Source: a virus
Virus record (IMG/VR): IMGVR_UViG_3300044972_000509
Coordinates: 1-26,154 of that record
DNA length: 26,154 bases
Direction: 5' to 3' (one strand)
Shown here piece by piece: positions 1,092 to 25,000 of the stretch (position 1 is the first letter of the stretch; each line of letters starts with the position of its first letter). The notes under the pieces are model-generated. The model saw only the letters and a program-made list of their open reading frames with translations. It searched no databases and had not been told where the DNA came from. The position numbers and the translations under genes were made by a program.

Positions 1092-2504
1092 ATGAACGCA
1101 TTTGTAAACGCAATCGCAAATCAAGAAGCCCGTACTGCCAATGGCATGAAGGCTCGTAAGTCAACAGCTAACGCCTGTGTTGACCTGTTCTACAAGATCG
1201 GCGCAAGCCGTGGTAAGAACATCACTGGCGAATTCACTGCGGCCTACGTAGAAAACTCTGACGTTGCACTTCGCATCGCACAATGGGCACGTGATGTCCG
1301 TGGTGGTGCAGGTGAACGACAAATCTTCCGTGACCTTTTGGTTCACTTGGAAAAGACTGATCCAGATGCCGCTTTGGCTTTGCTGAAGAAGGTACCTGAA
1401 GTTGGTCGCTGGGATGACATCTTTGTCTTCTCAACCCCTGCACTGAAGACAGCTGCCTACACAATGTTAGGTGATGCGCTTCGTGCCCAAAATGGTCTTG
1501 CTGCCAAGTGGACTCCACGTAAGGGCAAGATCGCGGCTGAAGTACGAGCATTCTTCGGAATGAGTCCTAAGCAGTACCGCAAGTCATTGGTAGCAATGAC
1601 CACAGTTGTTGAAACACAAATGTGTGCCGGCGACTGGGATAACATTAACTTCTCGCATGTTCCATCTGTGGCTGCTCGCAACTACAAGAAGGCATTCGGA
1701 CGTCACACTCCTCTGTTCGCAGAGTATGTGGCTAAGTTAGTATCAGGTGATAAGACTGTCAAGGTTAACGCCAACGCAATCTTCCCACATGATGTACTGA
1801 AGGGTGTTATTGGTAGCTACCGTTCTAAGTTGGACAAGACAGAAACTGACCACATTGTGGCACAGTGGGACGCTTTGCCAAACTACGTGGGAGATGCCAG
1901 CATCATGCCAATCGTAGACGTTAGTGGAAGCATGAGTTGCCCAGCAGGCAATAACACTAGTGTGACTTGTATGGATGTTTCAATCAGCTTGGGCTTGTAC
2001 CTAGCAGATAAGAACAAGGGTGTGTTCAAGGACACTTTCTTGACTTTCTCAGACAAGCCACAACTTGTTACCTTAAAGGGTAACATTGTTGACAAGGTTG
2101 CTCAAATGAGCAAGAGTGATTGGGACATGAGCACTAACCTAAACGCGGCTATGAACAAGATTCTAGACGTAGCGGTTAAGGGCGCAGTACCAGCTGGCGA
2201 CATGCCAAAGATGTTGCTGATCCTGAGTGACATGCAGTTCAACCAATGCGCCAAGCACGACGACAGCGCAATGGCAATGATCGAACGCAAGTTCGAAGCC
2301 GCTGGCTACAGCATGCCACAGATTGTTTTCTGGAACCTAAACAGTTCAGATAACGTGCCTGTTAAGGCAGACAAGAGTGGTGCCGCATTGGTAAGTGGAT
2401 TTAGCCCAAGTATAATGACTAGCTTGCTAGCCGCTGACTTGGATCAGTTCACTCCAGAAGGCATCATGCTTAAGACTGTAATGAGTGATCGTTACAAGCT
2501 CTAA
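1092..2504 (+). CDS. TROVE/DUF2828-like protein with vWA domain
   Basis: A 470-aa protein related to the DUF2828/TROVE (Ro60-like) families, which pair a helical-repeat ring with a von Willebrand A domain. The N-terminal part has the family signature ARDVRGGAGERQIFRDL (66-82), GRWDDIF (105-111) and NFSHVPSVAA (186-195). The vWA domain starts around 270 with the metal-binding MIDAS motif DVSGS (D276, S278, S280), a likely Thr near 348 and D380 in LILSDMQF. Ro-type proteins bind misfolded or small structured RNAs; whether this one does is inferred. It has its own sigma70 promoter, a structured leader and an AAAGGAAAAG ribosome site, and ends at a strong terminator. Base composition is odd: much GC-richer than neighbours, with Lys almost always AAG and Asn mostly AAC. 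That suggests either selection for high expression or recent transfer. Confidence 0.85.
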   Translation: MNAFVNAIANQEARTANGMKARKSTANACVDLFYKIGASRGKNITGEFTAAYVENSDVALRIAQWARDVRGGAGERQIFRDLLVHLEKTDPDAALALLKKVPEVGRWDDIFVFSTPALKTAAYTMLGDALRAQNGLAAKWTPRKGKIAAEVRAFFGMSPKQYRKSLVAMTTVVETQMCAGDWDNINFSHVPSVAARNYKKAFGRHTPLFAEYVAKLVSGDKTVKVNANAIFPHDVLKGVIGSYRSKLDKTETDHIVAQWDALPNYVGDASIMPIVDVSGSMSCPAGNNTSVTCMDVSISLGLYLADKNKGVFKDTFLTFSDKPQLVTLKGNIVDKVAQMSKSDWDMSTNLNAAMNKILDVAVKGAVPAGDMPKMLLILSDMQFNQCAKHDDSAMAMIERKFEAAGYSMPQIVFWNLNSSDNVPVKADKSGAALVSGFSPSIMTSLLAADLDQFTPEGIMLKTVMSDRYKL

Positions 2505-4123: not shown

Positions 4124-4588
4124 ATGTCAACATGTTATCAATTAGTCGGAGTTCCGGGTGCTGGAAAAAGCACCTGGATCAAAGATCAAATCTGGGCATT
4201 AGGTCTAACTGTGGTCAGTACAGACTCGTGGGTAGAGTTAGAAGCACAACGACAAGGTAAAACTTATTCTGAAGTGTTTACGGACTATATGCCCACAGCA
4301 GTTGATCTAATGGCCAAACAGGTTGTAAGGGCACGTGAGCTTGGCCATACTATAATCTGGGATCAAACTAGTACTACTATAGCAAGCCGTGCTAAAAAGT
4401 TTCGCATGTTGCCCGACTATGAGCATATTGCTGTAGTGTTTAAGACCCCTGAGCATACAGAACTTATGCGTAGATTGTCTAGTCGCCTGGGCAAAGAGAT
4501 TCCCGAGCATGTTATTGCCAGTATGATTGCAAGTTGGGAAGAACCTACTGAGGAAGAAGGCTTTAAAGAAATCTGGTACGCAAGTTAA
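4124..4588 (+). CDS. Polynucleotide kinase-like P-loop protein
   Basis: A 154-aa P-loop phosphotransferase. The Walker A motif is GVPGAGKST (9-17). D34 (STDSW) is in the position of the catalytic aspartate of T4 Pnkp-type kinases. D80 (IIWDQTST) follows the second core strand. The region around R117 (LMRRLSSRLGKEIPE) resembles the lid that contacts ATP. The length equals the kinase half of T4 Pnkp, and the phosphatase half is absent. In T4 this enzyme heals tRNA cut by host anticodon nucleases; a similar anti-defence role here is inference. It is preceded by an AAGGAAT ribosome site and followed by a strong terminator. Another small-molecule or nucleotide kinase of the same fold is possible. 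Confidence 0.75.
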   Translation: MSTCYQLVGVPGAGKSTWIKDQIWALGLTVVSTDSWVELEAQRQGKTYSEVFTDYMPTAVDLMAKQVVRARELGHTIIWDQTSTTIASRAKKFRMLPDYEHIAVVFKTPEHTELMRRLSSRLGKEIPEHVIASMIASWEEPTEEEGFKEIWYAS

Positions 4589-4615
4589 AATAGGACCTTC
4601 GGGTCCTATTTTTTT
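4587..4615 (+). terminator. Intrinsic terminator with UUCG tetraloop
   Basis: AAAATAGGACC pairs with GGTCCTATTTT around a TTCG loop (4598-4601), and the T-run continues to 4615. It closes the kinase operon and marks the left edge of the accessory island. A TTGACT follows at 4614-4619, but no -10 box is well spaced from it. Confidence 0.9.
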
Positions 4616-4632: not shown

Positions 4633-4640
4633 ATTAAATA
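4633..4640 (+). promoter_or_regulatory. T4-late-like promoter octamer
   Basis: ATTAAATA ends 4 nt before the ATG at 4645. T4 late promoters (TATAAATA) place the start of transcription about 13 nt after the first base of the octamer, which here lands at the ATG, predicting a leaderless mRNA. Confidence 0.55.
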
Positions 4641-4644
4641 CTGT

Positions 4645-5211
4645 ATGACTGAATGTTATTACAAATTTAATTTAGATATAGATCAAATTTTGAATCTCGA
4701 TTATATTATTAGGAAAGCCAACGAGAATGACGGTAAAGGTATGATTCTGGTCATGTCAGAGCTTGCTTTAAAACAGCCATTTTTCCAGTATCTAAAAAAC
4801 TATGGTATACGAGACTACCTAATGTTGTTCTTACGTAAATCTGGTAATCTAAATGAAAATATACATACAGATTATGTAACAGAGGACGATACACATCATT
4901 ATTCCTTTAATGTGCTGTGTCAAGGCCAGGGCACAATGACTTGGTTTAAAAGACCCGATGAGGGTAGTAAGATGTTCAGGCACCCAAATGATCCAACTAG
5001 AATTATATACGAAACGTATGAAGGTCTAACATTAGAACCTATGGATCGTTGGACTGATGGTAAAGTTGCACTGGTCAGAACAGGACTACCGCACGGTGTT
5101 AAAAATGAAGATGCTGAGAATCGAATATGCTTATGCATACGTATAGATGATTACGGATGGGAACAAGCTAAAGAAATTTACAATAACTTTTTTAAAAATG
5201 ATATATTATAA
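4645..5211 (+). CDS. Putative Fe(II)/2OG oxygenase, 188 aa
   Basis: A small cupin-fold oxygenase candidate. The iron-binding triad is H74-T-D76 (ENIHTDYV) and H150 (GLPHGV), with R160 (ENRICLCIRI) placed to bind 2-oxoglutarate. This HxD...H-x9-R pattern matches the aspartyl/asparaginyl beta-hydroxylase and prolyl hydroxylase-like groups. No substrate domain is evident. There is no Shine-Dalgarno sequence; a late-like octamer sits just before the ATG. Its end overlaps the next oxygenase gene by 14 nt, suggesting coupled translation. It is the first gene of the AT-rich island. Overall sequence similarity to the other oxygenases is low apart from the motifs. Confidence 0.7.
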   Translation: MTECYYKFNLDIDQILNLDYIIRKANENDGKGMILVMSELALKQPFFQYLKNYGIRDYLMLFLRKSGNLNENIHTDYVTEDDTHHYSFNVLCQGQGTMTWFKRPDEGSKMFRHPNDPTRIIYETYEGLTLEPMDRWTDGKVALVRTGLPHGVKNEDAENRICLCIRIDDYGWEQAKEIYNNFFKNDIL

Positions 5212-5728
5212 AAAATTAGATTTAGAATTTGAGACAGTAGCAAAAAAAACACTTGAGTACGCAACATTTCATAAAGATAAAATTAAATCTTTTTGGACAA
5301 ATATTAATTTTGAAAATTTTTCTAAACATGTTCCTGAAATAATAACAATGTTTTCTCCATTAAATATTACGCCGACTCGCATATCTTTAATTACAGCCGT
5401 TACTCCGGATAGATCCGATCCTGGAATACATAGAGACCACACAAGCATCCCTGTTAGAATTAATGTCCCCATTTTAAATTGTGAATATTCACAAACTAAA
5501 TTTTGGCGTACAACATCAGAATCAACAGTAGAATTTATTCCCGGAACTGACATTCCGTATTTTTATCTTAAAGAATCCGAGTGTGAATTAGCTGATACTC
5601 TTGTGTTAGATAGACCAACTGCGATAAGAATATCCGAACCTCACTCTGTACATGTAGGAGAAAAGGTTCCAAGATTGGCACTAACAATTGAGTTTGCAGA
5701 AGACATCGAATATCTATTAAACGATTAA
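5198..5728 (+). CDS. Putative Fe(II)/2OG oxygenase, 176 aa (paralogue A)
   Basis: The start at 5198 (MIYYKKLDLEF) is chosen over a further upstream ATG because it aligns with the start of its paralogue encoded at 5725-6249 on the other strand. The iron triad is H78-R-D80 and H149 (SEPHSV), with R159 as likely 2-oxoglutarate ligand. Signature PxRxNxPILNC follows the first motif (85-95). The two paralogues share the N-terminus (YYKxLDL), this core and the C-terminal DIxYLL. The family resembles aspartyl/asparaginyl beta-hydroxylases; the substrate is unknown. Its stop codon overlaps the stop of the opposite-strand paralogue by 4 bases. Confidence 0.75.
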   Translation: MIYYKKLDLEFETVAKKTLEYATFHKDKIKSFWTNINFENFSKHVPEIITMFSPLNITPTRISLITAVTPDRSDPGIHRDHTSIPVRINVPILNCEYSQTKFWRTTSESTVEFIPGTDIPYFYLKESECELADTLVLDRPTAIRISEPHSVHVGEKVPRLALTIEFAEDIEYLLND

Positions 5729-6249
5729 TCCAACAAGTAACTTATATCCTGCTTAAACGCAACTGTGCAAGATATTCTTGGTAGCCGGTCGTGATTAACA
5801 ACTACCTGATGCGGTTCTAACACACGCATAGCAACAGCCTGCGTTAATCTAAAACTATCCACAACTTCACAATAGTCTGGATGATATTGTACAAAACTAT
5901 TGCCGTTAGGTTGTGCTTGCGACTTCGTTGGTCCAGATGCTTTAAAATATTTAGTTTCGGTATCGTCGCAATTGAGTATTGGAAAATTTACCCTGATAGG
6001 CACATCAGTACCGTCAGTGTGTATACTTCCTATCTTATAGTGCATGATAAAAAATCCAACCATTGTAACGTCTAGTCCCATAGGTTTAAACATAGTGAAC
6101 AATTCCGGAACTTCTTTAACAATTTCTCTAGGTGCCGCAACCCAAGCACCTCGGCCTGGCGCAACAAGTTCAGGTCGTGATTCTAAAAATATTGTTATTT
6201 TGTCAGCAACACTTTGATAATTTAAGTCAAGGTATTTGTAATATTTCAT
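5725..6249 (-). CDS. Putative Fe(II)/2OG oxygenase, 174 aa (paralogue B)
   Basis: Opposite-strand paralogue of the preceding gene. The start at 6249 (MKYYKYLDLNY) is preferred over an ATG 18 nt upstream because it matches the paralogue and because a late-like octamer (GTTAAATA) would lie inside the longer version. The iron triad is H77-T-D79 and H147 (LEPHQV), with R158. The core PIRVNFPILNC (84-94) is the shared signature. An N-terminal insert around PGRGAWVAAP (31-40) and a longer QAQPNGNSF segment differ from paralogue A. The gene is divergent from the next oxygenase gene across only 30 nt and probably gives a leaderless mRNA. Confidence 0.75.
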   Translation of the reverse strand: MKYYKYLDLNYQSVADKITIFLESRPELVAPGRGAWVAAPREIVKEVPELFTMFKPMGLDVTMVGFFIMHYKIGSIHTDGTDVPIRVNFPILNCDDTETKYFKASGPTKSQAQPNGNSFVQYHPDYCEVVDSFRLTQAVAMRVLEPHQVVVNHDRLPRISCTVAFKQDISYLLD

Positions 6250-6254
6250 ACGGG

Positions 6255-6262
6255 TATTTAAC
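6255..6262 (-). promoter_or_regulatory. Late-like promoter octamer, minus strand
   Basis: GTTAAATA on the minus strand, with 5 nt before the ATG at 6249. It is back to back with the plus-strand octamer at 6267-6274, so the entire 30-nt intergenic region is two promoters. Confidence 0.6.
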
Positions 6263-6266
6263 CCCA

Positions 6267-6274
6267 TATAAATA
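6267..6274 (+). promoter_or_regulatory. Exact T4 late promoter octamer TATAAATA
   Basis: A perfect TATAAATA with GACGT between it and the ATG at 6280. The expected T4-late start position coincides with the A of the ATG. It is the best late-promoter match in the window. Confidence 0.7.
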
Positions 6275-6279
6275 GACGT

Positions 6280-6828
6280 ATGAATTTTATAAAATTAAAA
6301 AATAATCTAGACTTAGCTAACTATTCGATAGATGAAACTACTAATTCCTATGGAATGGAAGTAAATGGCGTATTTAAAGGCATCAAATACTCAAAGACCG
6401 ACACTACCCTTAAGGAATCTCTGTTTAATTTAATTCCTAAAGAGAATCGCCATTTTTTCGATATATCAGTTATGCAAGTTAACACGTACATTCCGCCGCA
6501 TACTGATAGTAATATTATGGCAACTATTAATTTCTATATTAAAACCAGCAACTGCGTAACACAATTTTATTCATTCAACACTGATGCTCCTCGAAAGGAA
6601 CAACTTAAAACTCAAACTAATGGCTACTTATTTTCAATACATGATCTAAATGCAGAAGATAAATTTGTAGCATCATCAGGTGAAATATGGCTATTAAATG
6701 TAACAAAACCGCATTCGGTGCAGCCGATAGAGAACGGACCAGTTGACCGTGTTGCTCTATGTTTATCGTCTAGGAAATATAATTTTAATGAAACAGTAGC
6801 GTTGTTACAAGCGACTGGCGCTTTATGA
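6280..6828 (+). CDS. Putative Fe(II)/2OG oxygenase, 182 aa
   Basis: A cupin-like oxygenase candidate with iron triad H74-T-D76 (IPPHTDSN) and H145 (TKPHSV), and R157 (VDRVALCLSS) for 2-oxoglutarate. The distal block SGEIWLLNVTKPHSV (133-147) closely resembles the SGEIW-type strand of aspartyl/asparaginyl beta-hydroxylases and is also seen as GELWFINGSYKHSV in the 13850 gene. It is transcribed from an exact TATAAATA with no room for a Shine-Dalgarno sequence. Its 3' end overlaps the convergent desaturase gene by 6 nt. The substrate is unknown. Confidence 0.75.
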   Translation: MNFIKLKNNLDLANYSIDETTNSYGMEVNGVFKGIKYSKTDTTLKESLFNLIPKENRHFFDISVMQVNTYIPPHTDSNIMATINFYIKTSNCVTQFYSFNTDAPRKEQLKTQTNGYLFSIHDLNAEDKFVASSGEIWLLNVTKPHSVQPIENGPVDRVALCLSSRKYNFNETVALLQATGAL

Positions 6829-7605
6829 CTTTCTAATAAGTTTGATAAGCCAATAGGTAGGATCTAATTCCCACCAGTGTTTGTGACCAAAGTTTGGATT
6901 GCCTGGATCACCATGATGATTATTGTGCCAGCACTCTCCTGTGCTTACGGGCCAAATCCATGGAACATTAACGCTGGTATCTTTCGTATCATAACTGCGA
7001 TATCCTAATTTAGGATAATGAACAATACTGGTTTGAATAGCAAAACTATGAAACGCTATCATGCATGGTAAAATCATAAAGTACAACCATAGATCGAAAC
7101 TAATCAAAGCAATAATTAAATGACTGAATATAAAAACCTTGTTGTAATGATTATGAAAAATCATTGCGTCTTTATCTTTCAGTACGTTAATAGCATACTT
7201 TAAATTTAGTGTAGCATAATTTATTCTAAACAACCATAAGAAATATGCATGCCAAAATCCATCTTTAGGGCTATGCAAGTCTTTATCAGTGTCAGAAAAT
7301 CTATGATGGTATCCTCGATGTATTGTTGTCCAAAATACGGGGCTACCTTGTCCTGCTACAGTTCCGCACCACAGGGCAAATAATTTTATTATACGATATG
7401 TTTCAAATGCTTTATGACTCATCATCCTGTGAAAACAAGCACCTACTCCTAACATTTTAAAACAGATGTAACCTAAAACGGTTGCAGTTAGCCACCATGC
7501 CGGTGCAACACCATTTACGATGTTATAGATAGCCCAGATTGCCCCCACATGCAAAGGTAACAATGTGTAAGTATTCTTTAATCTTTCTAAGGTTGATGTT
7601 TCCAC
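6823..7605 (-). CDS. Delta-9-type fatty acid desaturase 1
   Basis: A 260-aa membrane di-iron desaturase of the acyl-CoA/acyl-lipid delta-9 (stearoyl-CoA desaturase) class. All three histidine boxes are present: HRMMSH (H59-H64), HRGYHH (H96-H101) and HNNHH (H227-H231), spaced as in the family. Hydrophobic segments lie around 15-30, 36-58, 72-88, 159-185. The start is GTG at 7605, inside the end of the upstream gene (19-nt overlap), so translation is probably coupled. This class inserts a cis double bond into saturated acyl chains and works in the cytoplasmic membrane. It is one of three desaturases in the island, and the only one not adjacent to the acyl carrier protein operon. Conserved GYRSYDTKDTS before box 3 is shared with desaturase 2. 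Confidence 0.88.
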   Translation of the reverse strand: METSTLERLKNTYTLLPLHVGAIWAIYNIVNGVAPAWWLTATVLGYICFKMLGVGACFHRMMSHKAFETYRIIKLFALWCGTVAGQGSPVFWTTIHRGYHHRFSDTDKDLHSPKDGFWHAYFLWLFRINYATLNLKYAINVLKDKDAMIFHNHYNKVFIFSHLIIALISFDLWLYFMILPCMIAFHSFAIQTSIVHYPKLGYRSYDTKDTSVNVPWIWPVSTGECWHNNHHGDPGNPNFGHKHWWELDPTYWLIKLIRKS

Positions 7606-8132
7606 AGTTTTAATAATTCCTGGTTACCGTTATATACTATTGTTTGCCAGCAAGAATTGTCGGCTTCGTTGGAGCAAGTTAAGTATTTATGTCCATTTGT
7701 TTTCCAATCAATGTTATACTGCCACTTGAACTCATCTATAACAAATTTTTCCCAATTTGGAGTTTCTCTACTGATAAAGTGCAATTCACAGTCTGTATTC
7801 TTGTACAACCACTCTGACTGATTTATAGCAGTCAATCCAAAACTAGGACTCATTTTTCTTGGAAACGCTATTTTGTTATTTGCCTTCCAGCATCTATTCA
7901 TAATGCGATACACGCCCTTTGGCCAACACAATCTGCTGCCAATACTTGAGCATAATTCTGGAGTACCAGCATCGTCAAAACAGATGGTTAGAGCAACGGC
8001 AAAAGACATAGATTCGAGCCCGTAATTTTTCCAAAGTCGGTGTGTTCGATCTTGGTAATGTGTTTCTCTTAATTGGTTAAACAATGCATCAAGTTCTGCA
8101 TCGGTTCCGGGTATCCAAGTTTTGGTTTCCAT
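7587..8132 (-). CDS. Unknown protein, 181 aa
   Basis: Not recognised. The start at the ATG 8132 (METKTWIPGTD) is preferred over a TTG four codons upstream. It is a soluble protein rich in tryptophan and cysteine. The arrangement, with a central strand-like stretch SFAVALTICFDDAGTPELCSS (just after 40), a tract WPKGVYRIMNR about 69-79 and a C-terminal strand CWQTIVYNG, is compatible with an alpha/beta fold such as an acetyltransferase, but I cannot confirm this. It lies upstream of, and overlaps, the desaturase gene, so the two are probably co-expressed. I find no clear promoter octamer immediately before the start. Confidence 0.75.
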   Translation of the reverse strand: METKTWIPGTDAELDALFNQLRETHYQDRTHRLWKNYGLESMSFAVALTICFDDAGTPELCSSIGSRLCWPKGVYRIMNRCWKANNKIAFPRKMSPSFGLTAINQSEWLYKNTDCELHFISRETPNWEKFVIDEFKWQYNIDWKTNGHKYLTCSNEADNSCWQTIVYNGNQELLKLWKHQP

Positions 8133-8137
8133 TAATG

Positions 8138-8166
8138 TTGACAAGGGGTATGAAGTGTGTTATTAT
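8138..8166 (+). promoter_or_regulatory. Sigma70-type promoter inside the island
   Basis: TTGACA (8138-8143), a 17-nt spacer and TATTAT (8161-8166), giving a start of transcription near 8173 and a leader of about 24 nt. It is the only clear sigma70-type promoter within the island and drives the secreted hydrolase. Confidence 0.65.
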
Positions 8167-8196
8167 ATACGTATATTAACAACATGGTATTTAACT

Positions 8197-9015
8197 ATGA
8201 ACGGATTGATTAGAATTTTTCTTTGTTTAAGTTTAATCGGAACAGCATCTGCTCAAACTAATATTCAATTTAACAACTCGTTTTTTGGAGATACTATTAC
8301 CTATCTAAATAGTAAAAACGAAAAACAGAAGTTTGGCGTTCGGGTCTATGGCAATAATGCAAATAAGCATACTGTGATCCACTTACACGGTTGCGGCGGC
8401 GTTAAACCTTATGCTAGTTCTTGGTTCAATAAATTTAAAGAATGGGGCTATAATGTTGTAGTAGTTGATAGCTTCGGTCCTCGATGGTTGGGCGAAGCTT
8501 GTTATAACTACGAGTATATGTCTAAGAAACCTTATGAGCGTGTTGACGACATGTTTGTAGCTGCCGAATGGATTATGAAGCAACCTTGGAATAAAGGTAA
8601 ACCAGCCGCAGTAGGATTCAGTCATGGCGCTCAAGTAATACATATTGCTAGCACAAGCGAGTATGTACAAAAGTCTAAACAACTAATTAGTTCAGCTGTA
8701 GCATTCTACCCGTACTGTCATTATGATGTTGTTACAGATTGGGAAGCGGCTTGGCCAATGCAGATGCATCTAGGCAAACTTGATAACTGGACACCAGAAT
8801 GGTTGTGTACAGGCCATGCAAGATTCCAATCTGATAAATTTGACTACCAAGTTTATGAAGGTGCTCATCACGGATGGGATATAGGATTCAGTGCTACGAT
8901 GAATGCTGTTGGTAACGGCGGCTATGTAAGACCTCGAACTATTGAATACAATGCTCAAGCCGACCGAGACAGTACTGAAAATACTAAAAAATGGTTGGCA
9001 AAGTTCTTTAATTAA
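8197..9015 (+). CDS. Secreted dienelactone hydrolase-like protein
   Basis: A 272-aa alpha/beta hydrolase with a Sec signal peptide. The start at 8197 is chosen because it gives MNGLIRIFLCLSLIGTASAQ: a basic start, a hydrophobic core and an ASA signal-peptidase site near residue 19. The oxyanion region HLHGCGG (62-68) is followed by the nucleophile elbow GFSHGA (S142), the acid in GKLDNWTP (D196) and the histidine in GAHHGWD (H224/H225). This order matches dienelactone hydrolases, esterases acting on small esters or lactones, in the periplasm or outside the cell. Possible roles are cleaving an ester in the host envelope or a product of the island; both are inference. Its end overlaps the convergent acetyltransferase-like gene by 8 nt. 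Confidence 0.82.
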   Translation: MNGLIRIFLCLSLIGTASAQTNIQFNNSFFGDTITYLNSKNEKQKFGVRVYGNNANKHTVIHLHGCGGVKPYASSWFNKFKEWGYNVVVVDSFGPRWLGEACYNYEYMSKKPYERVDDMFVAAEWIMKQPWNKGKPAAVGFSHGAQVIHIASTSEYVQKSKQLISSAVAFYPYCHYDVVTDWEAAWPMQMHLGKLDNWTPEWLCTGHARFQSDKFDYQVYEGAHHGWDIGFSATMNAVGNGGYVRPRTIEYNAQADRDSTENTKKWLAKFFN

Positions 9016-9592
9016 ATTTTCTGTATTCTGGGAGTAGGATACCTTTAACAATAGCACTATCTATAGTTTTAGAATTCATTTCGAAGAGCCAATCCCATGA
9101 GTGTGTGGTGATTGGCTTTTCTAATGCTGGTACTATTTCGTCTACTACCATAACATATCGTTTACGGATAGTATCTCTCCATGCTCGATCAAACACTTTA
9201 ATTTTACTTGCTTCTATTACACGATAGTATTCATAGTATCCTACACGTTCTGCTTCTGCAATAGCATACTCTCCACAGGCAGTTCCTGTATGTATAGCAC
9301 GATAGTCTTTGTAGTCTGAAAAATAATAGCTCATAGACCATGCTTTGACTGTTATTGAAAAATCCTGACATAATACTGTTCGTAATTTACCATCTTCAAA
9401 CCACCCAATTGCATTCCTACTCTTACTGCCCCACATAAGCCAATCATGAATTATTTTATCAACCAGTATTTCTCGACGAGATTTTCCAGCCCAGGGTATA
9501 AACTCTGACAAGTCTTGCCCCATAATTGTATCTATGTTAGACAATAGTGACTTAAAGTCTTCAATATTAGTTTTGTCTAAAAGTTTTATCAT
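9008..9592 (-). CDS. GNAT-like acyltransferase candidate A, 194 aa
   Basis: Probably a GNAT-fold protein, judged from its layout: an N-terminal beta-alpha unit (MIKLLDKTNIEDFKSLL), a central strand pair (KLRTVLCQDFSITVKAW about 70-86) and a segment THTG-like to AEAERVGYY that could be the acetyl-CoA pyrophosphate loop and helix. It is a clear relative of the protein encoded at 11241-11822: shared pattern L.QxFSxT...WxMxYY, then a helix with AxAExxG, then VxxVxxVVPAxExP, and a C-terminal IVKxxLxxxxR. The start ATGA overlaps the stop of the PP-loop gene, so the two are coupled. The substrate is unknown. Confidence 0.6.
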   Translation of the reverse strand: MIKLLDKTNIEDFKSLLSNIDTIMGQDLSEFIPWAGKSRREILVDKIIHDWLMWGSKSRNAIGWFEDGKLRTVLCQDFSITVKAWSMSYYFSDYKDYRAIHTGTACGEYAIAEAERVGYYEYYRVIEASKIKVFDRAWRDTIRKRYVMVVDEIVPALEKPITTHSWDWLFEMNSKTIDSAIVKGILLPEYRKFN

Positions 9593-10536
9593 TTTGGTTC
9601 TAGCATTTCTTCAAATTCTTTAATAGGTATTTCCCAAGTACCAGTGGTTCTAAATTTTTTAGAATACTTCTTGTTTAGGTCCATACAAAGCCCGCTTAAC
9701 TGTTCGCTGCCGTGAAATTTTAATCTTGGTTCTAAATCATTCCAGCTTTTAATATACACAACAGTTTTAGTTGATCTGCTGCTCATCTTGTAGGCTATTT
9801 CATTATACACACATTTGTGCATGACTGGATCTTGGATCATAGCTAACACTATTTCAGGATTATGCATAAAGAATCCTAGGCACCCTAGTATATTATTGTT
9901 AACAGCAAATCTATTCCACGCAAGAATATATTCGTATTCTATGTAGTTCCATTGATATTTAGGTTTACTTTTATCAAATATCCAATCAATCGATATATCT
10001 TTAGACACATACAAGTCACCGTTACCCAGTACAGGAAATCCGTTTAAATTATTCCAAACATGTTTTATTAATTTCATGTGCGGCAACATTTCACTTTGTG
10101 AGCATTTCGATTGTTCAAAATATCCATCCACTTCGTTAGAGGTTAACCAATTAGGGTCTATATCGTAATAACTGTGATTCAATCCGTGCTTGTTAATAAA
10201 CTTATCAATATAATGTATTTCATGAGAGCTTAGGTCATTTTTAAATTTAAAACTAATAACTTTAAAGTCTACACCTGCATCAATAAATGCTTTAACAACA
10301 ACTTCACTATCAAGCCCGCCACTTAAAAAAATGTAAGGAATTCTACTTAACTGTTCTGCTTGGTTGGCTACTTCTTTAGCGGTGTTTATACATTCTTCTT
10401 TAAAGGTACTAGGTGTTCTTGAACACCTGCTGTATGTGCAGAAAAATTTATCAGTTTCATAATTCTTTTTTTCTGCAAATGGAACACCGTTGTAGCCAAA
10501 CGTAAAATGGTTGTCGATAGTGTAGGGTAGGCTCAT
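9589..10536 (-). CDS. PP-loop (asparagine synthase-like) ATP-dependent ligase
   Basis: A 315-aa protein with the ATP-pyrophosphatase signature SGGLDSE (72-78) after strand PYIFL, as in asparagine synthase B, QueC and related N-type PP-loop enzymes that adenylate a carbonyl before amide or nitrile formation. A second conserved-looking strand, FKVISFKF, follows (about 91-98). There is no glutaminase domain; the roughly 70-residue N-terminal part lacks a nucleophilic Cys at position 2. The chemistry is therefore likely activation of a carboxylate or carbonyl with an unknown amine. The GNAT-like gene follows immediately. A late-like octamer (ACTAAATA) lies 6 nt before the start and the gene is divergent from an oxygenase gene across 40 nt. 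Confidence 0.75.
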   Translation of the reverse strand: MSLPYTIDNHFTFGYNGVPFAEKKNYETDKFFCTYSRCSRTPSTFKEECINTAKEVANQAEQLSRIPYIFLSGGLDSEVVVKAFIDAGVDFKVISFKFKNDLSSHEIHYIDKFINKHGLNHSYYDIDPNWLTSNEVDGYFEQSKCSQSEMLPHMKLIKHVWNNLNGFPVLGNGDLYVSKDISIDWIFDKSKPKYQWNYIEYEYILAWNRFAVNNNILGCLGFFMHNPEIVLAMIQDPVMHKCVYNEIAYKMSSRSTKTVVYIKSWNDLEPRLKFHGSEQLSGLCMDLNKKYSKKFRTTGTWEIPIKEFEEMLEPK

Positions 10537-10542
10537 GGAAAA

Positions 10543-10550
10543 TATTTAGT
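10543..10550 (-). promoter_or_regulatory. Late-like promoter octamer, minus strand
   Basis: ACTAAATA on the minus strand, with 6 nt (TTTTCC) before the ATG at 10536. It forms a divergent pair with 10564-10571 in a 40-nt intergenic region. Confidence 0.5.
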
Positions 10551-10563
10551 AAAAAAAATAGTT

Positions 10564-10571
10564 GTTAAATA
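10564..10571 (+). promoter_or_regulatory. Late-like promoter octamer, plus strand
   Basis: GTTAAATA followed by GTTTT and the ATG at 10577, the same layout as the octamer before the gene at 6249 on the other strand. It predicts a leaderless mRNA. Confidence 0.6.
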
Positions 10572-10576
10572 GTTTT

Positions 10577-11266
10577 ATGAAAAATATACTCTGGGTACCA
10601 TTAGACTTACCCCCAATTAAAAAAGAAGTTACCTTAGAAAACATAGGTACATTGTTTGACTATGTTCCCAACGCTAGTCCTGAAGAACGCATAGTATTAT
10701 CAGAACAGAGACAGCACTACAAATATGCATGGAACACATTTAGATTAAGGTATCCATCATCTACAAGAACAGATTGGGAAGGACAAAATCTAGACGACAA
10801 CTGGAATTGGACTGAGGGTGCTCAAAAACACTGCCCAAATCTTGTAGAGTACATAGTAACACAGTTACCTTTTAAAAAATTAAAAGCAGTTTCTATTATG
10901 AGTTCTACTGGAGTAGTTCCGTTACATTTAGATATGCCGCTAAATGCGACTGATAGTGAAAAGAAAAATTATGTCGAAAATGAACCTAGTGTATATAGAC
11001 TGTTAATAGATGGTGATATGCATAAAGATAGTTTCTATGTAGCATCTAAATCTGTAGGTAAAAGATACGTTAGTCTGCCTGCAAGTTCACCAGGATGGGC
11101 AATGGGGTGTTACTCATGCGGCCACGGTAATGACGAAACTGTTCCGCATCAAAAACTATTAGTTTATCTAATGGGGGATTTAGATCAAAACAGACATGCA
11201 GAGTTAATCAACAGAAGTATTCTTAAATATAAAGATTTTGCTATCTTGTCAGAGGAACAGATCTAA
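10577..11266 (+). CDS. Putative Fe(II)/2OG oxygenase, 229 aa
   Basis: The start at 10577 (MKNILWVPLD) is chosen over a TTG 15 nt upstream, which would overlap the promoter octamer. The iron-binding pair is H117-L-D119 (VPLHLDMP), and the distal histidine is probably H183 in YSCGHGND, or H191. The residue after it is K193 where other members have arginine, a less typical 2-oxoglutarate contact, so this assignment is weaker than for its neighbours. R141 (VYRLLIDG) follows the first motif. An N-terminal helical extension of about 100 residues precedes the core. Its 3' end overlaps the convergent GNAT-like gene by 26 nt. Confidence 0.6.
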   Translation: MKNILWVPLDLPPIKKEVTLENIGTLFDYVPNASPEERIVLSEQRQHYKYAWNTFRLRYPSSTRTDWEGQNLDDNWNWTEGAQKHCPNLVEYIVTQLPFKKLKAVSIMSSTGVVPLHLDMPLNATDSEKKNYVENEPSVYRLLIDGDMHKDSFYVASKSVGKRYVSLPASSPGWAMGCYSCGHGNDETVPHQKLLVYLMGDLDQNRHAELINRSILKYKDFAILSEEQI

Positions 11267-11822
11267 ATTCTTGCTTGCATACTGCATGTCTAATAAACAC
11301 ACTATGAGGTTTTGGTATTTTTCCATAGGCTTGGGTATGTATTTCATATTTTGGAAACTCATTAGCAGGTACAACCACATCAGTATAGACTTCATATCGA
11401 ATCCAGTTAGGACTATACTTTTGCATCCTCGGACCATTCTTTGCATACTGTAACGGAACACTCCACCAAAAGTCATATATGCCTATAACTTCTGCATCAG
11501 CCATGGCCTTAGCAAAGCACGACTCTAATCCGGCACCGTACCCTTTACCAATCAATATGTTGTTAGTTTTAGTAGCATAATATTGCATAATCCATATAGG
11601 AATCGTAGTTGAAAATGATTGAGCCAAAATTGCCACAAGCTCGTTATTCTCTACTGCTCCTATTATTCGATCTCTATTACCTTCAGTTAATGCATATTCA
11701 GTTCGAGCAATTAAATTATCTAATACAGAGTCCTGATTATCTTGTTTGCTAAACTTCTGTCTGTTCTTCAAAAGTCCAACTACTCGATCTTTATAATCAA
11801 GTGTTAAAATTTCTGTTTGCAT
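11241..11822 (-). CDS. GNAT-like acyltransferase candidate B, 193 aa
   Basis: Paralogue of the protein encoded at 9008-9592. The GNAT-like features are somewhat clearer here: a strand LVAILAQSFS (64-73), then GKGYGAGLESCFAKAMADA (93-111), which resembles the R/Q-x-x-G-x-G/A acetyl-CoA loop and its helix. The C-terminal half contains YTDVVVPANEFP and ends IRHAVCKQEFR. The ATG directly abuts the stop codon of the upstream oxygenase gene (TAAATG), so the oxygenase and this protein are probably made together; a coupled hydroxylation and acylation is conceivable. The substrate is unknown. Confidence 0.6.
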   Translation of the reverse strand: MQTEILTLDYKDRVVGLLKNRQKFSKQDNQDSVLDNLIARTEYALTEGNRDRIIGAVENNELVAILAQSFSTTIPIWIMQYYATKTNNILIGKGYGAGLESCFAKAMADAEVIGIYDFWWSVPLQYAKNGPRMQKYSPNWIRYEVYTDVVVPANEFPKYEIHTQAYGKIPKPHSVFIRHAVCKQEFRSVPLTR

Positions 11823-12686
11823 TTATTTTATGCCCTTAATTTTTTCGTGAATATGTCCTTCAACAAGCATGTCGATTGGATGCATTTCACCGTAAAACTC
11901 ATTACTGGTCCAACTGTCTTCTTCTGCGTTGTAATCAAACCAAGGACAAAATCCCAACACTAGATGTATTCTATTCCTTACTTCGTCAGTATTTGGAAAT
12001 ACTCTATGTGGAAGATACGTATCCCATGAATACATATTCCCATAGTGCAAATGTTCAGGTGTTTGATTAAGTAGTTGAAACATAAATGTTTCGTCAGTCT
12101 TAATAGGTATATTGATTCTTAAATTTTCAAAGACTGTTTCATCTTTATGCCACCCAAACTTTGGTCTAGCTTCTTCAGTGACATATTGTGCATTAATAAC
12201 TGCTAATCTTGCTCTTACACTAGAGCTTTTAAAACTGTCAAAAAAATCCTTCAGACCAGTTTCTGTTACACATGGAGGATAATGTCTAAATGCAAGTGTA
12301 TCAAAATAGCTGTTTCTTATGGTTTTAAACTTTTGAATTTGCCCGTAAAAAAACTCATTACCGTTATTTTTTACAGTACCTAATGTTTGTTGGTTAGGAT
12401 CACAGTCTTCAGTATATTCAGGATTGTATGCTAGGCTTAATCCCCCGTATTCCCTACCGTCCCCGTCATCAGATCTCCATCCAAGGAAACCGAACTTATC
12501 AAGTGCATTTAGGGTAGTCTTGGATAGGTCGTCTATGTCAAATGTGTGATTTAAGTTGATAAGACGTGTTGTATCTACCTTGGACTGCAAAGATCGTGCC
12601 CGACGTTCGATATCAGTATTCTGTTTGATCCACCCCCATACTGAATAAGGATCTGGGACTTCTTTAACGTAGAATTTGTGTGACAT
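11823..12686 (-). CDS. Putative Fe(II)/2OG oxygenase, 287 aa
   Basis: The largest of the non-TauD oxygenases. The iron triad is H180-K-D182 (FGWHKDETVF) and H227 (YLPHRVFPN), with R237 or R239 (EVRNRIHLVLGF) for 2-oxoglutarate. The core LRINIPI (189-195) parallels the RVNFPI/RINVPI strand of the 5198 and 5725 proteins. This is the aspartyl/asparaginyl beta-hydroxylase-like arrangement. The N-terminal 170 residues have no recognised motif and may bind the substrate. A late-like octamer (AATAAATA) lies 4 nt before the ATG, so the mRNA should be leaderless. It is followed without a gap by the GNAT-like gene. Confidence 0.75.
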   Translation of the reverse strand: MSHKFYVKEVPDPYSVWGWIKQNTDIERRARSLQSKVDTTRLINLNHTFDIDDLSKTTLNALDKFGFLGWRSDDGDGREYGGLSLAYNPEYTEDCDPNQQTLGTVKNNGNEFFYGQIQKFKTIRNSYFDTLAFRHYPPCVTETGLKDFFDSFKSSSVRARLAVINAQYVTEEARPKFGWHKDETVFENLRINIPIKTDETFMFQLLNQTPEHLHYGNMYSWDTYLPHRVFPNTDEVRNRIHLVLGFCPWFDYNAEEDSWTSNEFYGEMHPIDMLVEGHIHEKIKGIK

Positions 12687-12690
12687 GAAA

Positions 12691-12698
12691 TATTTATT
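12691..12698 (-). promoter_or_regulatory. Late-like promoter octamer, minus strand
   Basis: AATAAATA on the minus strand with TTTC before the ATG at 12686. It differs from the T4 late consensus at one base and drives the 12686-11241 pair. Confidence 0.55.
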
Positions 12699-12730
12699 TT
12701 AGTGTATCTCATGGTCTTCGTTATATTGGA

Positions 12731-13048
12731 TCAAACGTCTTCGTATGTGATAGTCCAAGTGATGTTATTTTCTGTATGATACGCAGTACGATTAGTTACA
12801 TAATCTGGATGACTAGCAATCACTAACTCATCATTTTGATCGCAGTCTTCTCTGCTAACCCAAACAGTTTCTGTACGAATTGTTAAAACATCTTTATATT
12901 TTAACATAGACATAATTTTTTCTTCAAAAAATGCGGTGCGAGAAAGATCTGTAAGCGTTGCTGTAATAGGACTAGTACTTTCAAGTTGAAAGAAATGCTT
13001 AACAAACTTATTTGGAAGAGTACTAGTAATAATTTTTTTAATGGCCAT
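12731..13048 (-). CDS. Unknown small protein, 105 aa
   Basis: Not recognised. The start at 13048 (MAIKKIITS) is chosen because a Shine-Dalgarno (AGGAG, 13056-13060 on the minus strand) sits at the right distance; a longer TTG-started version would run into the promoter octamer. It is a small soluble protein, predicted mostly beta (SPITATLTDL, DVLTIRTETVWV, ITWTITYEDV), with an acidic loop EDCDQNDE (about 72-79). Unlike its island neighbours it has a real leader and ribosome site, which suggests higher or differently timed translation. A small beta-sandwich accessory or structural protein is one possibility. Confidence 0.65.
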   Translation of the reverse strand: MAIKKIITSTLPNKFVKHFFQLESTSPITATLTDLSRTAFFEEKIMSMLKYKDVLTIRTETVWVSREDCDQNDELVIASHPDYVTNRTAYHTENNITWTITYEDV

Positions 13049-13075
13049 GGAAAAACTCCTGTATTTTACTAGCAA

Positions 13076-13083
13076 TATTTATC
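13076..13083 (-). promoter_or_regulatory. Late-like promoter octamer, minus strand
   Basis: GATAAATA on the minus strand, in the 39-nt gap between two minus-strand genes. The predicted start lies near 13070, giving a leader of about 22 nt with an AGGAG ribosome site for the gene starting at 13048. Confidence 0.6.
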
Positions 13084-13087
13084 TAAA

Positions 13088-13810
13088 TTAATAGAACGCT
13101 TGTTTTGTATTGATGTAAGGTAAAAACGCTTGAAAATTAATATTGCCGAACACTCTAATTGTTATACGAATACCGGGAGTATATCCAACGCCGTGAAATG
13201 CACTATCATTAAACAGCATAGCATTACCCGGAACTTTGTAAACTTCTTTGTTTGTATAGGAATATATTTGCATAGGAATATTGCCCGTATCTGGAATAAT
13301 ACTTAACCCTAATGTTTTAGCATATTCGGTAGATAGAATAGGCGGCCCGCCTACTCCATAGTCTCGATGTGTGGGAAAAAATGTATTTTCTGTAACAAAT
13401 ACCCTAATGCAACCAACGTGAATATACGGCAAACTCTCAATACATTCTATAGTATAAGGCATATTACTTTTATATTTTTCTATCCAACTCCACGAATCTG
13501 TTGGAAGAGATTTAGTAATTATAAATTTTTCTGCATCAGGATTGTGTGTATTTTCTCTTAGATAAAAAATATATTGCCCTTGCATGCCGTTGTGTACGTG
13601 CGTTGTGCCGTCATCATCGATATAGTCTATCTTTTTGTATAGCTCATCGGTTTCTGATTTAAACACTTGTCCTGCCATTGCATTGTCAATGTGAGCCTTG
13701 TACGGTGGCGTATACTTCCAATATTGTCTTAACGATATCATCTCTAATTTGATTTTTTCATAATCAAATGGTAGATTAAGTTCGGCTGCTAAAAGATCTG
13801 TAACATTCAT
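13088..13810 (-). CDS. Putative Fe(II)/2OG oxygenase, 240 aa
   Basis: The iron triad is H148-R-D150 (FFPTHRDYG) and H206 (DSAFHGVGY), with R215 and R219 (GIRITIRVFG) available for 2-oxoglutarate. The segment KVPGNAMLFNDSAFHGV (192-208) is the typical turn and strand before the distal histidine in aspartyl/asparaginyl hydroxylase-like proteins. About 130 N-terminal residues precede the core; they include HVHNGMQGQYIFYLRENT, probably an added beta layer. The gene is divergent from the 13850 operon across 39 nt. I see no clean octamer 4-6 nt before its ATG; a candidate lies 21 nt upstream (13832-13839). Confidence 0.75.
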   Translation of the reverse strand: MNVTDLLAAELNLPFDYEKIKLEMISLRQYWKYTPPYKAHIDNAMAGQVFKSETDELYKKIDYIDDDGTTHVHNGMQGQYIFYLRENTHNPDAEKFIITKSLPTDSWSWIEKYKSNMPYTIECIESLPYIHVGCIRVFVTENTFFPTHRDYGVGGPPILSTEYAKTLGLSIIPDTGNIPMQIYSYTNKEVYKVPGNAMLFNDSAFHGVGYTPGIRITIRVFGNINFQAFLPYINTKQAFY

Positions 13811-13831
13811 GATTTAAAATTCCCACTACGT

Positions 13832-13839
13832 TATTTAAT
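13832..13839 (-). promoter_or_regulatory. Possible late-like octamer in the 13811-13849 divergent gap
   Basis: ATTAAATA on the minus strand lies within TTATTTAATAA, which is nearly symmetrical and so could serve either strand. It is 21 nt from the ATG at 13810 and about 10 nt from the ATG at 13850. The spacing is less convincing than in the other pairs. Confidence 0.35.
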
Positions 13840-13849
13840 AAGTAAATGT

Positions 13850-14398
13850 ATGAGTGCTATAAAAACCCTTAGAATGTATGCCAAAAGTAAAAAACTTCCC
13901 CAGGCTGTTAAACTAGGAAATGTTCCATGCGAGTGGATTAAGTACGCTCAAAATGTTGCAATGGCTGCTCCTAATACTAGTGAACTTGCACTTAATCAAC
14001 GAGCAGAAAAAAACATTGCAGGCACAGAAATTGTAAATTATAATCAGCTTACAGAGTTTTACAATCAGCGATATATTGATAACATTGAGTTACCTAATGA
14101 AATTAAAGAGTTACAAGGTGTGCACCATTTAAGATTTGGAGTTCTAGATGAAGGTAACACAATACCCTTCCATTTAGATGAACCCTATACTTTAAGATTT
14201 GTATGTGTAATTACCGGATCTCATAAATTTAAGTTTGAAACGGGCTCAGAATATCTAATGAAAGAGGGTGAACTTTGGTTCATAAATGGATCATATAAGC
14301 ACTCAGTTGAAAATACATTTAGTGGAACAAGAATGGCACTGCTTGGTAAGTTTGAGCATTGTGAATACAATACGAGAATAATAAATGAATTATTATGA
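13850..14398 (+). CDS. Putative Fe(II)/2OG oxygenase, 182 aa
   Basis: First gene of the seven-gene plus-strand operon 13850-18768. The iron triad is H108-L-D110 (IPFHLDEPYTLRFVCV) and H151 (SYKHSVEN), with R161 (GTRMALLGKF). GELWFINGSYKHSVEN (140-155) is a textbook aspartyl/asparaginyl beta-hydroxylase distal block. The basic N-terminus (KTLRMYAKSKKLPQAVKLG) is probably a helix. The end overlaps the radical SAM gene by 14 nt. Position next to a radical SAM enzyme and a TauD-like oxygenase suggests successive oxidations of one substrate, which is inference. Confidence 0.75.
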   Translation: MSAIKTLRMYAKSKKLPQAVKLGNVPCEWIKYAQNVAMAAPNTSELALNQRAEKNIAGTEIVNYNQLTEFYNQRYIDNIELPNEIKELQGVHHLRFGVLDEGNTIPFHLDEPYTLRFVCVITGSHKFKFETGSEYLMKEGELWFINGSYKHSVENTFSGTRMALLGKFEHCEYNTRIINELL

Positions 14399-15332
14399 AT
14401 TAGAACCTTCTAAAAATCATTTCAGCGATGTCATGGTAGATATTACACATAAGTGCAACATGACTTGTAAAAATTGTTATGTCCCTAACCGAGACATTCC
14501 GGACATGGATGCAGATAGATTAATTGAAACAATAAAACAATTTCCAAAGCGAACAATGATACGAATCGTTGGCGCAGAGCCTACTGTAAGAAAAGACCTA
14601 CCGAGTATTATACGACGAATTAGAGAAACTGGTCATAGAGCTACATTGTTAACTAACGGATTAAGATTAGCTAATAATGATTATGTTAGAGAATTAAAAG
14701 ACAACAGACTTAATCACGTTTACCTAAGTTTAAACGGAGTAGATAACGATGATTGGTACGAATCTATAGACGAAATGCGTTGCTCTGTAAAGAAGATACA
14801 AGCGTTAGAAAATTTAGTTTCTAATAAATTTGTTATAGATACTGGAACTATTATTGTAAAAGGCGTTAACGACGAAGCTCCTGCAAGGATGCTAGAACTT
14901 TATCAGCGTAAAGGAATACAACATGCTCTATGCAGGATTAAAAATGTTGGTAAATTAGGACGTAGTATGTTCGATGAAACTGCCGGAGAGCATCGCCTGT
15001 CAATTAGCACAAACTACTCAATGAACGGGTTAATCAAATTAGTTGCAGACCAAGTAGGAGTTAGTGTAGACTATATCGAAAGCTGGCGCAACAGACCTAT
15101 ATACGAAAATACAAACCCAGAAGATAGTAGTTTTATTTTTCCATTAGATCCAAGAAGTGAAGGCAAGCTCATGCATCGAAGTGGCATTTGGTTTAAAATT
15201 GCAGATTGGGATACACTAGGAAATCCGGACGGTGTACCGCTGCCGAATAATACAAGAAGAGGCCGATTAACTGAAGATTTTAAAGTGGCACCTATGGCAG
15301 AGCATGTTAAATTAAACGAGGGAGGTTACTAA
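14385..15332 (+). CDS. Radical SAM enzyme
   Basis: A 315-aa radical SAM protein. The [4Fe-4S]-binding cysteines are C24, C28 and C31 (HKCNMTCKNCY), followed by the SAM-contact motif GAEPT (63-67, GGEP in most relatives) and TLLTNGLRL (strand 4 region, just before 100). This is the MoaA/NifB/PqqE-like arrangement. There is no evident cysteine-rich SPASM tail; the last 100 residues have none of the usual CxxxxxC pattern, so it probably carries only the cluster needed for radical generation. It cleaves SAM to a 5'-deoxyadenosyl radical; the substrate is unknown. The next start lies one base after its stop, and the preceding gene overlaps it, so expression is tightly coupled to two oxygenases. 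Confidence 0.85.
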   Translation: MNYYELEPSKNHFSDVMVDITHKCNMTCKNCYVPNRDIPDMDADRLIETIKQFPKRTMIRIVGAEPTVRKDLPSIIRRIRETGHRATLLTNGLRLANNDYVRELKDNRLNHVYLSLNGVDNDDWYESIDEMRCSVKKIQALENLVSNKFVIDTGTIIVKGVNDEAPARMLELYQRKGIQHALCRIKNVGKLGRSMFDETAGEHRLSISTNYSMNGLIKLVADQVGVSVDYIESWRNRPIYENTNPEDSSFIFPLDPRSEGKLMHRSGIWFKIADWDTLGNPDGVPLPNNTRRGRLTEDFKVAPMAEHVKLNEGGY

Positions 15333-15333
15333 G

Positions 15334-16380
15334 ATGAAAACTAAAAAATTAAATGGTTTTGGTAGTTTAGGCGTAGAAGTTTATGATTTAGATTTAAAAA
15401 CTTGCAGTGATAACGACATTAAAGAACTAGGTAAGATAGTCGTAGACCAACTAGTAGTGTATGTCAATGCAGAAAACTGCACAGTCTCTCCTGCAAGGTT
15501 GAATCATATTGCACAATTGTTTGGAGATCCTTTCGGCGGCCAAGATCAAAGTGCATATAAGATGGTTGAAGAAAAGCGTAAAAATCATCAATTAGATAGA
15601 AAAGATTTAAAAGCATTGCGTGAACTTAGAAAGATTCGAGTAGGGTTAGAAGAATACCCAGGTATGATCCGCGTCACTGGTATGAAGGACGACGAGGGAG
15701 ATTACATCGGTATGTTTGCTGAGGGTGAGTTGGATTGGCATAGTGATAGACAAGGCACGGGAAATTTTGTGCCGATGATCCTGTTACAAGCTGTAGAAGG
15801 CACAGTGGGCACATCTACCGAATTTTTACAAACTGCTGATGCCTATGAGTTACTAACGCCCGAATGGAAAACTATTATTGATAACCTTATCGGCGTACAT
15901 AAGTACACTCCTGGTAAAATGGCGCCAGGATTGAATGCTAGTCAAGATAATATTTTAAGAATGAACATGTGTCCCATTGACAACAGTGAAGTTCCTATAG
16001 TATGCTTTAGCCCAGGAGGCCGAAAAGGAATTAGACTTAGCTATAATACCCTAACTCATTTTAAAGGGTTTAGTCAACAAGACAGCGATGAGATATTACA
16101 ATTTATCATGAATCATTTCTTAAAAGATGAATATGTATATCACCAAGACTGGAATAACGGAGATCTAGTATTCATGGATCAAACTATTACTGTACATCGT
16201 CGACCAACTAAAGATTGTAGCAAACGTGTAATGATTAGACAAACTTGCAATTTTGATAACATTCTTAACAGAGGAACCCAAGGATTACAAAACATTGGCT
16301 ATGAGACTCCGGGTATCATTATCGATAGTAAGATGATTACTACACAAGAATATTTTGAAAAATTTAGATACGCATATTAA
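15334..16380 (+). CDS. TauD/TfdA-family Fe(II)/2OG dioxygenase
   Basis: A 348-aa TauD-like dioxygenase. The iron triad is H136-x-D138 (LDWHSDRQ) and H288 (ITVHRRP), and R298 or R302 (KRVMIRQT) would bind 2-oxoglutarate. The Thr in VGTSTEF (156-163) matches the TauD family strand after the HxD loop, and NNGDLVFMDQ (274-283) the strand before the distal histidine. The length is slightly above TauD (about 280), because of an insert around 70-105 rich in basic and acidic residues. Family members hydroxylate free small molecules or carrier-bound amino acids. With the acyl carrier protein 10 nt downstream, a carrier-bound substrate is attractive but unproven. It has a GGGAGG ribosome site. Confidence 0.85.
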   Translation: MKTKKLNGFGSLGVEVYDLDLKTCSDNDIKELGKIVVDQLVVYVNAENCTVSPARLNHIAQLFGDPFGGQDQSAYKMVEEKRKNHQLDRKDLKALRELRKIRVGLEEYPGMIRVTGMKDDEGDYIGMFAEGELDWHSDRQGTGNFVPMILLQAVEGTVGTSTEFLQTADAYELLTPEWKTIIDNLIGVHKYTPGKMAPGLNASQDNILRMNMCPIDNSEVPIVCFSPGGRKGIRLSYNTLTHFKGFSQQDSDEILQFIMNHFLKDEYVYHQDWNNGDLVFMDQTITVHRRPTKDCSKRVMIRQTCNFDNILNRGTQGLQNIGYETPGIIIDSKMITTQEYFEKFRYAY

Positions 16381-16390
16381 AGGAAATTAA

Positions 16391-16630
16391 ATGGAAAACG
16401 TAAAAGACAATTTGTTTAAATTGATGGCAGAACAAGTGGGCAAACCGTTGTCCACTATTACACTAGAATCTACATTCGAAGAGTTAGGCGCAGACTCACT
16501 AGATGTAGTAGAAATTGCACTAGCAGTAGAAGACGAATACAATATTGAGATTCCCGACGATTCAGCCGAGGGTATTAAAAATGTAGGTGATATCGTTGCT
16601 ATTGTTGAAAAATTAGTTAACGCAAAATGA
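16391..16630 (+). CDS. acpP: Acyl carrier protein
   Basis: A 79-aa acyl carrier protein, the usual length. The 4'-phosphopantetheine attachment site is S36 in GADSLDVVE, followed by the family block ALAVEDEYNIEIPDD. The protein is acidic and predicted four-helical. After modification by a phosphopantetheinyl transferase (none seen in the window, so the host would supply it), it carries acyl chains as thioesters. It sits between the TauD-like gene and a desaturase, has an AAAGGAAAT ribosome site, and its stop overlaps the desaturase start (ATGA). Either an acyl pool dedicated to the phage pathway or a decoy for host lipid synthesis is possible. Confidence 0.92.
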   Translation: MENVKDNLFKLMAEQVGKPLSTITLESTFEELGADSLDVVEIALAVEDEYNIEIPDDSAEGIKNVGDIVAIVEKLVNAK

Positions 16631-24943: not shown

Positions 24944-25000
24944 AGTGCGTAGTTATTAGGGGCTGACACTACACTTAAATATGTATAATAGGAGAGTACT
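24944..25000 (+). promoter_or_regulatory. Intergenic hairpin with possible -10 box and ribosome site
   Basis: AAGTG-cg-TAGT (from 24943) can pair with ACTACACTT (24968-24976) around a 14-nt loop. A perfect TATAAT (24984-24989) follows, but the nearest -35-like box (CTGACA, 24963-24968) is 15 nt away, so a promoter is uncertain. GGAGAG before the GTG at 25001 is a good ribosome site that overlaps this region. No strong T-run is present, so termination after ClpP is not clear. Confidence 0.35.

Follow-up and report, generated by a model that had tools for sequence, protein, structure and literature searches.

Late genes of bacteriophage T4 are transcribed from promoters consisting of a single box, TATAAATA, which is recognised by the late sigma factor gp55 acting with gp33 and gp45. 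The box occupies positions -13 to -6 (PMC1524935). In T4 we find it mostly 23–29 nt before the ATG, with a Shine-Dalgarno (SD) leader between the two. Cyanophages (Kyanoviridae) such as Syn9 and P-SSM2 carry similar TAAATA-type boxes upstream of late genes, mostly 20–27 nt before the ATG. Leaderless mRNAs are described from a different setting. In several cellular bacteria, and in a few phage transcripts such as that of lambda cI, a -10 box of a host sigma factor lies just upstream of the ATG, so that the mRNA starts at AUG and has no SD. Here we describe a class of late-type promoters in a group of T4-type phages, including cultured phages of the abundant ocean bacterium SAR11, in which the box lies mostly at exactly 5 nt before the start codon, a position predicted to give leaderless mRNAs. 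These sites share with T4 the TAAATA core, usually preceded by A, and late virion genes among their targets, but differ in their distance to the ATG. They differ from the leaderless genes of cellular bacteria and lambda cI in the inferred use of a phage sigma-like factor for a set of lytic late genes. T4 late promoters and leaderless mRNAs are each known; a systematic class of late promoters fused to start codons was not found in our searches of the open-access literature for leaderless T4-type late mRNAs, where absence is not proof. The leaders reported for phage AR9 are 26–491 nt long.

TAAATA boxes adjoin start codons in the window

The starting point was a 26,154-nt virus record (IMGVR_UViG_3300044972_000509, positions 1 to 26,154), referred to here as the window. 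The original prediction held that octamers ending in TAAATA lie 4–6 nt before six ATGs, two pairs of which are divergent, and that a seventh octamer precedes a leader with an SD. This observation is correct in every particular. On the plus strand, ATTAAATA-CTGT-ATG (4633–4647; octamer 4633–4640, gap 4) begins a 188-aa ORF at 4645. Just upstream, an intrinsic-terminator-like hairpin with a T run, AAAATAGGACC-TTCG-GGTCCTATTTTTTT (4587–4615, plus strand), separates this promoter from the gene ending at 4588. On the minus strand, GTTAAATA-CCCGT-ATG (6247–6262, gap 5) begins a 174-aa ORF at 6249; its divergent partner, TATAAATA-GACGT-ATG (6267–6282, plus strand, gap 5), begins a 182-aa ORF at 6280, and its octamer at 6267–6274 is exactly the T4 consensus. 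The second pair comprises ACTAAATA-TTTTCC-ATG (10534–10550, minus strand, gap 6), at the start at 10536 of a 315-aa ORF with a weak QueC/Asn-synthase-like match, and GTTAAATA-GTTTT-ATG (10564–10579, plus strand, gap 5), at the start at 10577 of a 229-aa ORF. The divergent gaps are 30 nt (6250–6279) and 40 nt (10537–10576). Lastly, AATAAATA-TTTC-ATG (12684–12698, minus strand, gap 4) begins a 287-aa ORF at 12686.

The contrasting site, GATAAATA at 13083–13076 on the minus strand (feature 13046–13083), is followed by 27 nt to an ATG at 13048; with +1 placed six nt past the octamer, the predicted leader is 22 nt and contains CAGGAG, as had been claimed. We found two further probable leadered late promoters that the original prediction had missed. 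One lies before the GTG at 25001 (24976–25003, plus strand; TAAATA at 24976–24981, gap 19 nt with AGGAG), and a more tentative one before the ATG at 13810 (13808–13837, minus strand; TAAATA at 13837–13832, gap 21 nt, weak SD).

A motif frequency no higher than in shuffled sequence had been put forward in advance as a result that would count against the prediction. The bare TAAATA-N4-6-ATG pattern occurs 7 times in the window, against 2.42 ± 1.49 in dinucleotide shuffles, and 2 of 100 shuffles reach 7. The raw pattern alone is thus only modestly unusual and was too weak to decide the matter. However, 6 of the 7 hits sit on start codons of ORFs of 174–315 aa. Measured against TAAATA at other distances upstream of the same ATGs, 6 occurrences at gaps of 4–6 nt has a Poisson P of about 4e-8. 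All six starts lack an SD of 4 nt or more, whereas many other genes in the window have one.

A 5-nt spacing class in related T4-type phages

To establish whether the pattern extends beyond one record, we sought relatives. Searches with the window's own late genes returned only a near-identical contig, weak 34% hits in Roseobacter phages, or nothing. A DNA ligase fragment at the right end of the window was a more useful anchor, recovering 80 contigs of uncultivated phages, some of 120–233 kb. In these, the distance from TAAATA to the ATG of ORFs of at least 80 aa is bimodal, with a narrow peak at 4–6 nt (maximum at 5) and a broad one at 16–25 nt. The other AT-rich hexamers tested do not show this pair of peaks, apart from ATAAAT, which overlaps the same box.

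We then examined whole records: five related uncultivated T4-type phages (G001–G005) and, as named comparisons, T4, Syn9, P-SSM2, the pelagiphage HTVC008M, Mosig, Melnitz, Rhizobium phage TM61 and 400 kb of Agrobacterium phage Atu_ph07. HTVC008M and Mosig are cultured on Pelagibacter HTCC1062. In G001–G005 the distances form one sharp peak at exactly 5 nt and a broad one, usually with an SD, at about 16–29 nt. Counts at exactly 5 nt were 15 in G002, 11 in HTVC008M, 8 in G005, 6 each in G003 and Mosig, 5 each in G001 and G004, and 3 in Melnitz, compared with 4 in P-SSM2, 3 in T4, 2 in Atu_ph07 and 0 in Syn9 and TM61. With a flat background estimated from other distances, P ranges from about 2e-4 to 7e-13 in G001–G005, HTVC008M and Mosig, the enrichment being weaker in Mosig than in HTVC008M. 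Some genomes share orthologues (G002 and G004), so the sites are not all independent. P is borderline in Melnitz (0.014) and P-SSM2 (0.009), and unremarkable in T4, Syn9, Atu_ph07 and TM61. We set the T4 hits aside as background owing to their number, their mostly purine -1 base and their location; the P-SSM2 sites likewise mostly lack the -1 pyrimidine described below. Among all 4096 hexamers at the 5-nt position, TAAATA ranks first both in the relatives (42 seen, 4.8 expected) and in HTVC008M (11 seen, 0.85 expected), ahead of SD hexamers. Chance occurrence of an AT-rich hexamer beside ATG in AT-rich phage DNA, which the modest raw count in the window and the background-like hits in T4 and P-SSM2 might suggest, is refuted for the group by these values and by the orthologue conservation below, and we consider it highly improbable.

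The predicted transcription start falls on the start codon

Given the position of the T4 box at -13 to -6, a 5-nt gap makes the A of ATG +1; gaps of 4 and 6 nt, as at three of the window sites, are one base off. Two features that were not used to find the sites agree. First, the base before the ATG is a pyrimidine in 57 of 59 sites with the 5-nt gap, against an average of about 53% in the same genomes, and in 16 of 17 distinct 5-nt sites from further loci. All six window sites have T or C at this position. A pyrimidine at -1 and a purine at +1 is the usual preference of bacterial RNA polymerase, and excluding a purine at -1 would stop initiation one base early. In the leadered class of these phages, which we inspected as a check on the start offset, we saw no clear initiator signal at the predicted start, though T4 shows a weak one. 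Second, start codons at the 5-nt gap are ATG 59, TTG 1 and GTG 0, against 132, 15 and 10 in the leadered class at 16–29 nt, as expected of leaderless mRNAs.

An SD of 4 nt or more occurs in 7 of 75 leaderless-type starts and in 92 of 130 leadered ones; we do not use this contrast as main proof because it is partly forced by the position of the promoter. The TAAATA core is present by construction, and is preceded by A in 69% of 5-nt sites, but T at the first position of the octamer (-13) occurs in only 31% and is not conserved here. Absence of a -35 element was not tested separately. One alternative is that the AT-rich element acts in translation, for example as an S1-binding or unstructured stretch before the ATG, on longer mRNAs that start elsewhere. 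Many sites follow a gene on the same strand, making read-through mRNAs possible, and AT-rich starts without an SD exist. Nevertheless, a specific hexamer at a fixed 5-nt gap, with a pyrimidine at -1 and almost only ATG, is not what a general AT-rich enhancer would give, and permuted hexamers are not enriched likewise. In addition, the divergent pairs need promoters within 26–40 nt, and gp25 orthologues keep the same box either close to the ATG or upstream of an SD leader. We consider this alternative unlikely.

Target genes and conservation of the geometry

In HTVC008M, the sites coincide with independently annotated starts: a 2OG oxygenase (6280), CsgF (7562), a cyclase (11972), tape measure (16007, minus strand), gp2 (18916, minus strand), gp4 (18943), tail tube cap (19456), gp25 (31132), a baseplate wedge protein (49760), a small ORF (75559), gp3 (75830) and a regulator (142360). 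In Mosig they include a fatty acid desaturase, an Asp/Arg hydroxylase, a nitroreductase, an LpxH-like hydrolase and gp2. The class covers virion genes and auxiliary metabolic genes.

The geometry is conserved at orthologues of the baseplate wedge protein gp25 and of gp2. TAAATA-N5-ATG is kept at gp25 in the G002/G004 group and in the sequences labelled here L056, L076–L078, L082 and L186–L188. By contrast, L189–L191, Melnitz, Atu_ph07, Phosso and PA5oct have the same promoter with a longer, usually SD-bearing leader, and Mosig has a gap of 8. The gp25 gene, leaderless-type in some phages and SD-led in others, constitutes a natural experiment. In the G002/G004 group an alternative in-frame ATG lies 6 nt further upstream; however, the N-termini (FKGFST) align with those of SD-led orthologues, which supports the leaderless-type ATG as the true start. 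The gp2 gene has the 5-nt gap in 18 of 29 readable loci, including a relative at 36% identity, and a gap of 8 in six. Overlapping divergent gp2/gp4 promoters, like the two pairs in the window, recur in 22 loci down to 67% gp2 identity. Not every family behaves in this way: the cyclase family, chosen because HTVC008M and Melnitz share the geometry, proved variable, with the 5-nt gap in 8 of 64 readable loci and no TAAATA in 43.

These alignments bear on the possibility that the true starts lie further downstream, giving the promoters ordinary leaders. Starts of the poorly conserved window genes could not be checked by homology, but the N-termini of gp25, gp2 and gp4 align, and the HTVC008M annotation chose the same starts. 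We therefore regard this possibility as very unlikely.

Late sigma factor and phage-encoded bS21

Homologues of gp55 are clear in G001–G004 (E down to 3e-79 with phrog_12791) and detectable in Mosig and Melnitz, while HTVC008M has an annotated gp55 and a putative gp33. None was found in G005 or in the window, which is a fragment whose late genes have almost no sequenced relatives; whether the phage of the window itself encodes gp55 is left undecided by this search. Its absence from the fragment, together with the -10 boxes found just upstream of ATG in leaderless genes of several bacteria, could suggest promoters of the host's main sigma factor instead. This reading is improbable, as the enriched hexamer is TAAATA and not a TATAAT type, the genes include late virion genes, and gp55 homologues are present in relatives. 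We also used ClpP to infer the host, but the best hits, at about 50%, were to varied, mostly beta- and gammaproteobacteria and were not decisive.

The ribosomal protein bS21 is encoded by G001, G002, G005, G008, HTVC008M, Mosig, Melnitz and Atu_ph07, but not by T4, Syn9 or P-SSM2. A speculative extension, which the evidence does not exclude but which we consider doubtful, is that this lineage runs a second, dedicated translation route for many late genes, with phage bS21 tuning host ribosomes towards the leaderless mRNAs. Since Atu_ph07 lacks the leaderless class and G003, possibly incomplete, lacks bS21, this is a lead only.

A model for leaderless late transcripts

We conclude, with good though not complete confidence, that these are T4-type late promoters, in which a gp55-recognised -10 box with a TAAATA core is positioned so that initiation falls on, or within a base of, the A of the start codon. 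The resulting late mRNAs would be leaderless and translated by direct binding of ribosome and initiator tRNA to a 5′-terminal AUG. Our analysis demonstrates the sequence pattern, its spacing, statistics and conservation, and the gp55 homologues in related phages. That RNA polymerase with gp55 starts where it does in T4, that the mRNAs are leaderless, and that they are translated as such, we infer; the offset is carried over from T4 with E. coli RNA polymerase, and no transcript 5′ ends have been mapped for any of these phages. The interpretation offered in the original prediction, of T4-type late promoters with transcription starting on or next to the ATG, is accordingly supported, although its phrase of routine leaderless translation of a whole gene set is too strong as worded. 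Leaderless-type promoters coexist with SD-led late promoters in the same genomes, and in HTVC008M the capsid, sheath, tube and portal genes keep SDs.

If this view is right, part of late gene expression in phages of SAR11 and of other uncultivated aquatic phages bypasses SD-based initiation, which is unusual for phages, and promoter and start annotation would be corrected in many environmental phages. It may also explain why late promoter prediction was unsuccessful in pelagimyophages (PMC7029224). In this model the leaderless design packs promoter and translation start into about 14–17 bp, which would let two divergent genes share 26–40 nt, and suggests that such promoter-start cassettes could help genes to move between phages. 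An LpxH-like phosphoesterase carries a promoter with the 5-nt gap both in G005 and relatives and in Mosig, which would fit promoter and gene moving together.

Ribosomal protein bS21 is encoded by most phages that have the predicted leaderless class of late promoters, and not by T4, Syn9 or P-SSM2. The gene lies at 91228-91431 in the cultured pelagiphage HTVC008M, at 9983-10132(-) in Mosig and at 34209-34367 in Melnitz, and in the related uncultivated T4-type phages G001, G002 and G005 it lies at 169278-169433(-), 217601-217759 and 26575-26730, respectively. However, Atu_ph07 has bS21 without the class, so the link is only a lead. In addition, a smaller group of starts, at HTVC008M 59714, in loci L344-L350 and at Mosig 89800(-), lies 7-8 nt after TAAATA, which would give leaders of 2-3 nt.

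An LpxH-like phosphoesterase, with the N-terminus SIFISD.H, carries a TAAATA-N5-ATG promoter in two distant phage groups (G005 68808, locus L060 3646, locus L073 5108 and Mosig 94129), possibly moving as a promoter-gene cassette.

Within the window, positions 4645-14395 hold a run of short, fast-diverging ORFs with almost no sequenced relatives beyond one near-identical contig; the one at 13850 has an Asp/Arg hydroxylase/cupin match. At 14385-18768, a radical SAM protein, an acyl carrier protein and a fatty acid desaturase are encoded side by side, with a further desaturase-like ORF at 18103. A relative of the radical SAM gene has a leaderless-type promoter in G002 (101834, minus strand). Lastly, window positions 1092-2504 encode a protein of phrog_850 (RNA-binding protein), with relatives in 677 phage records.
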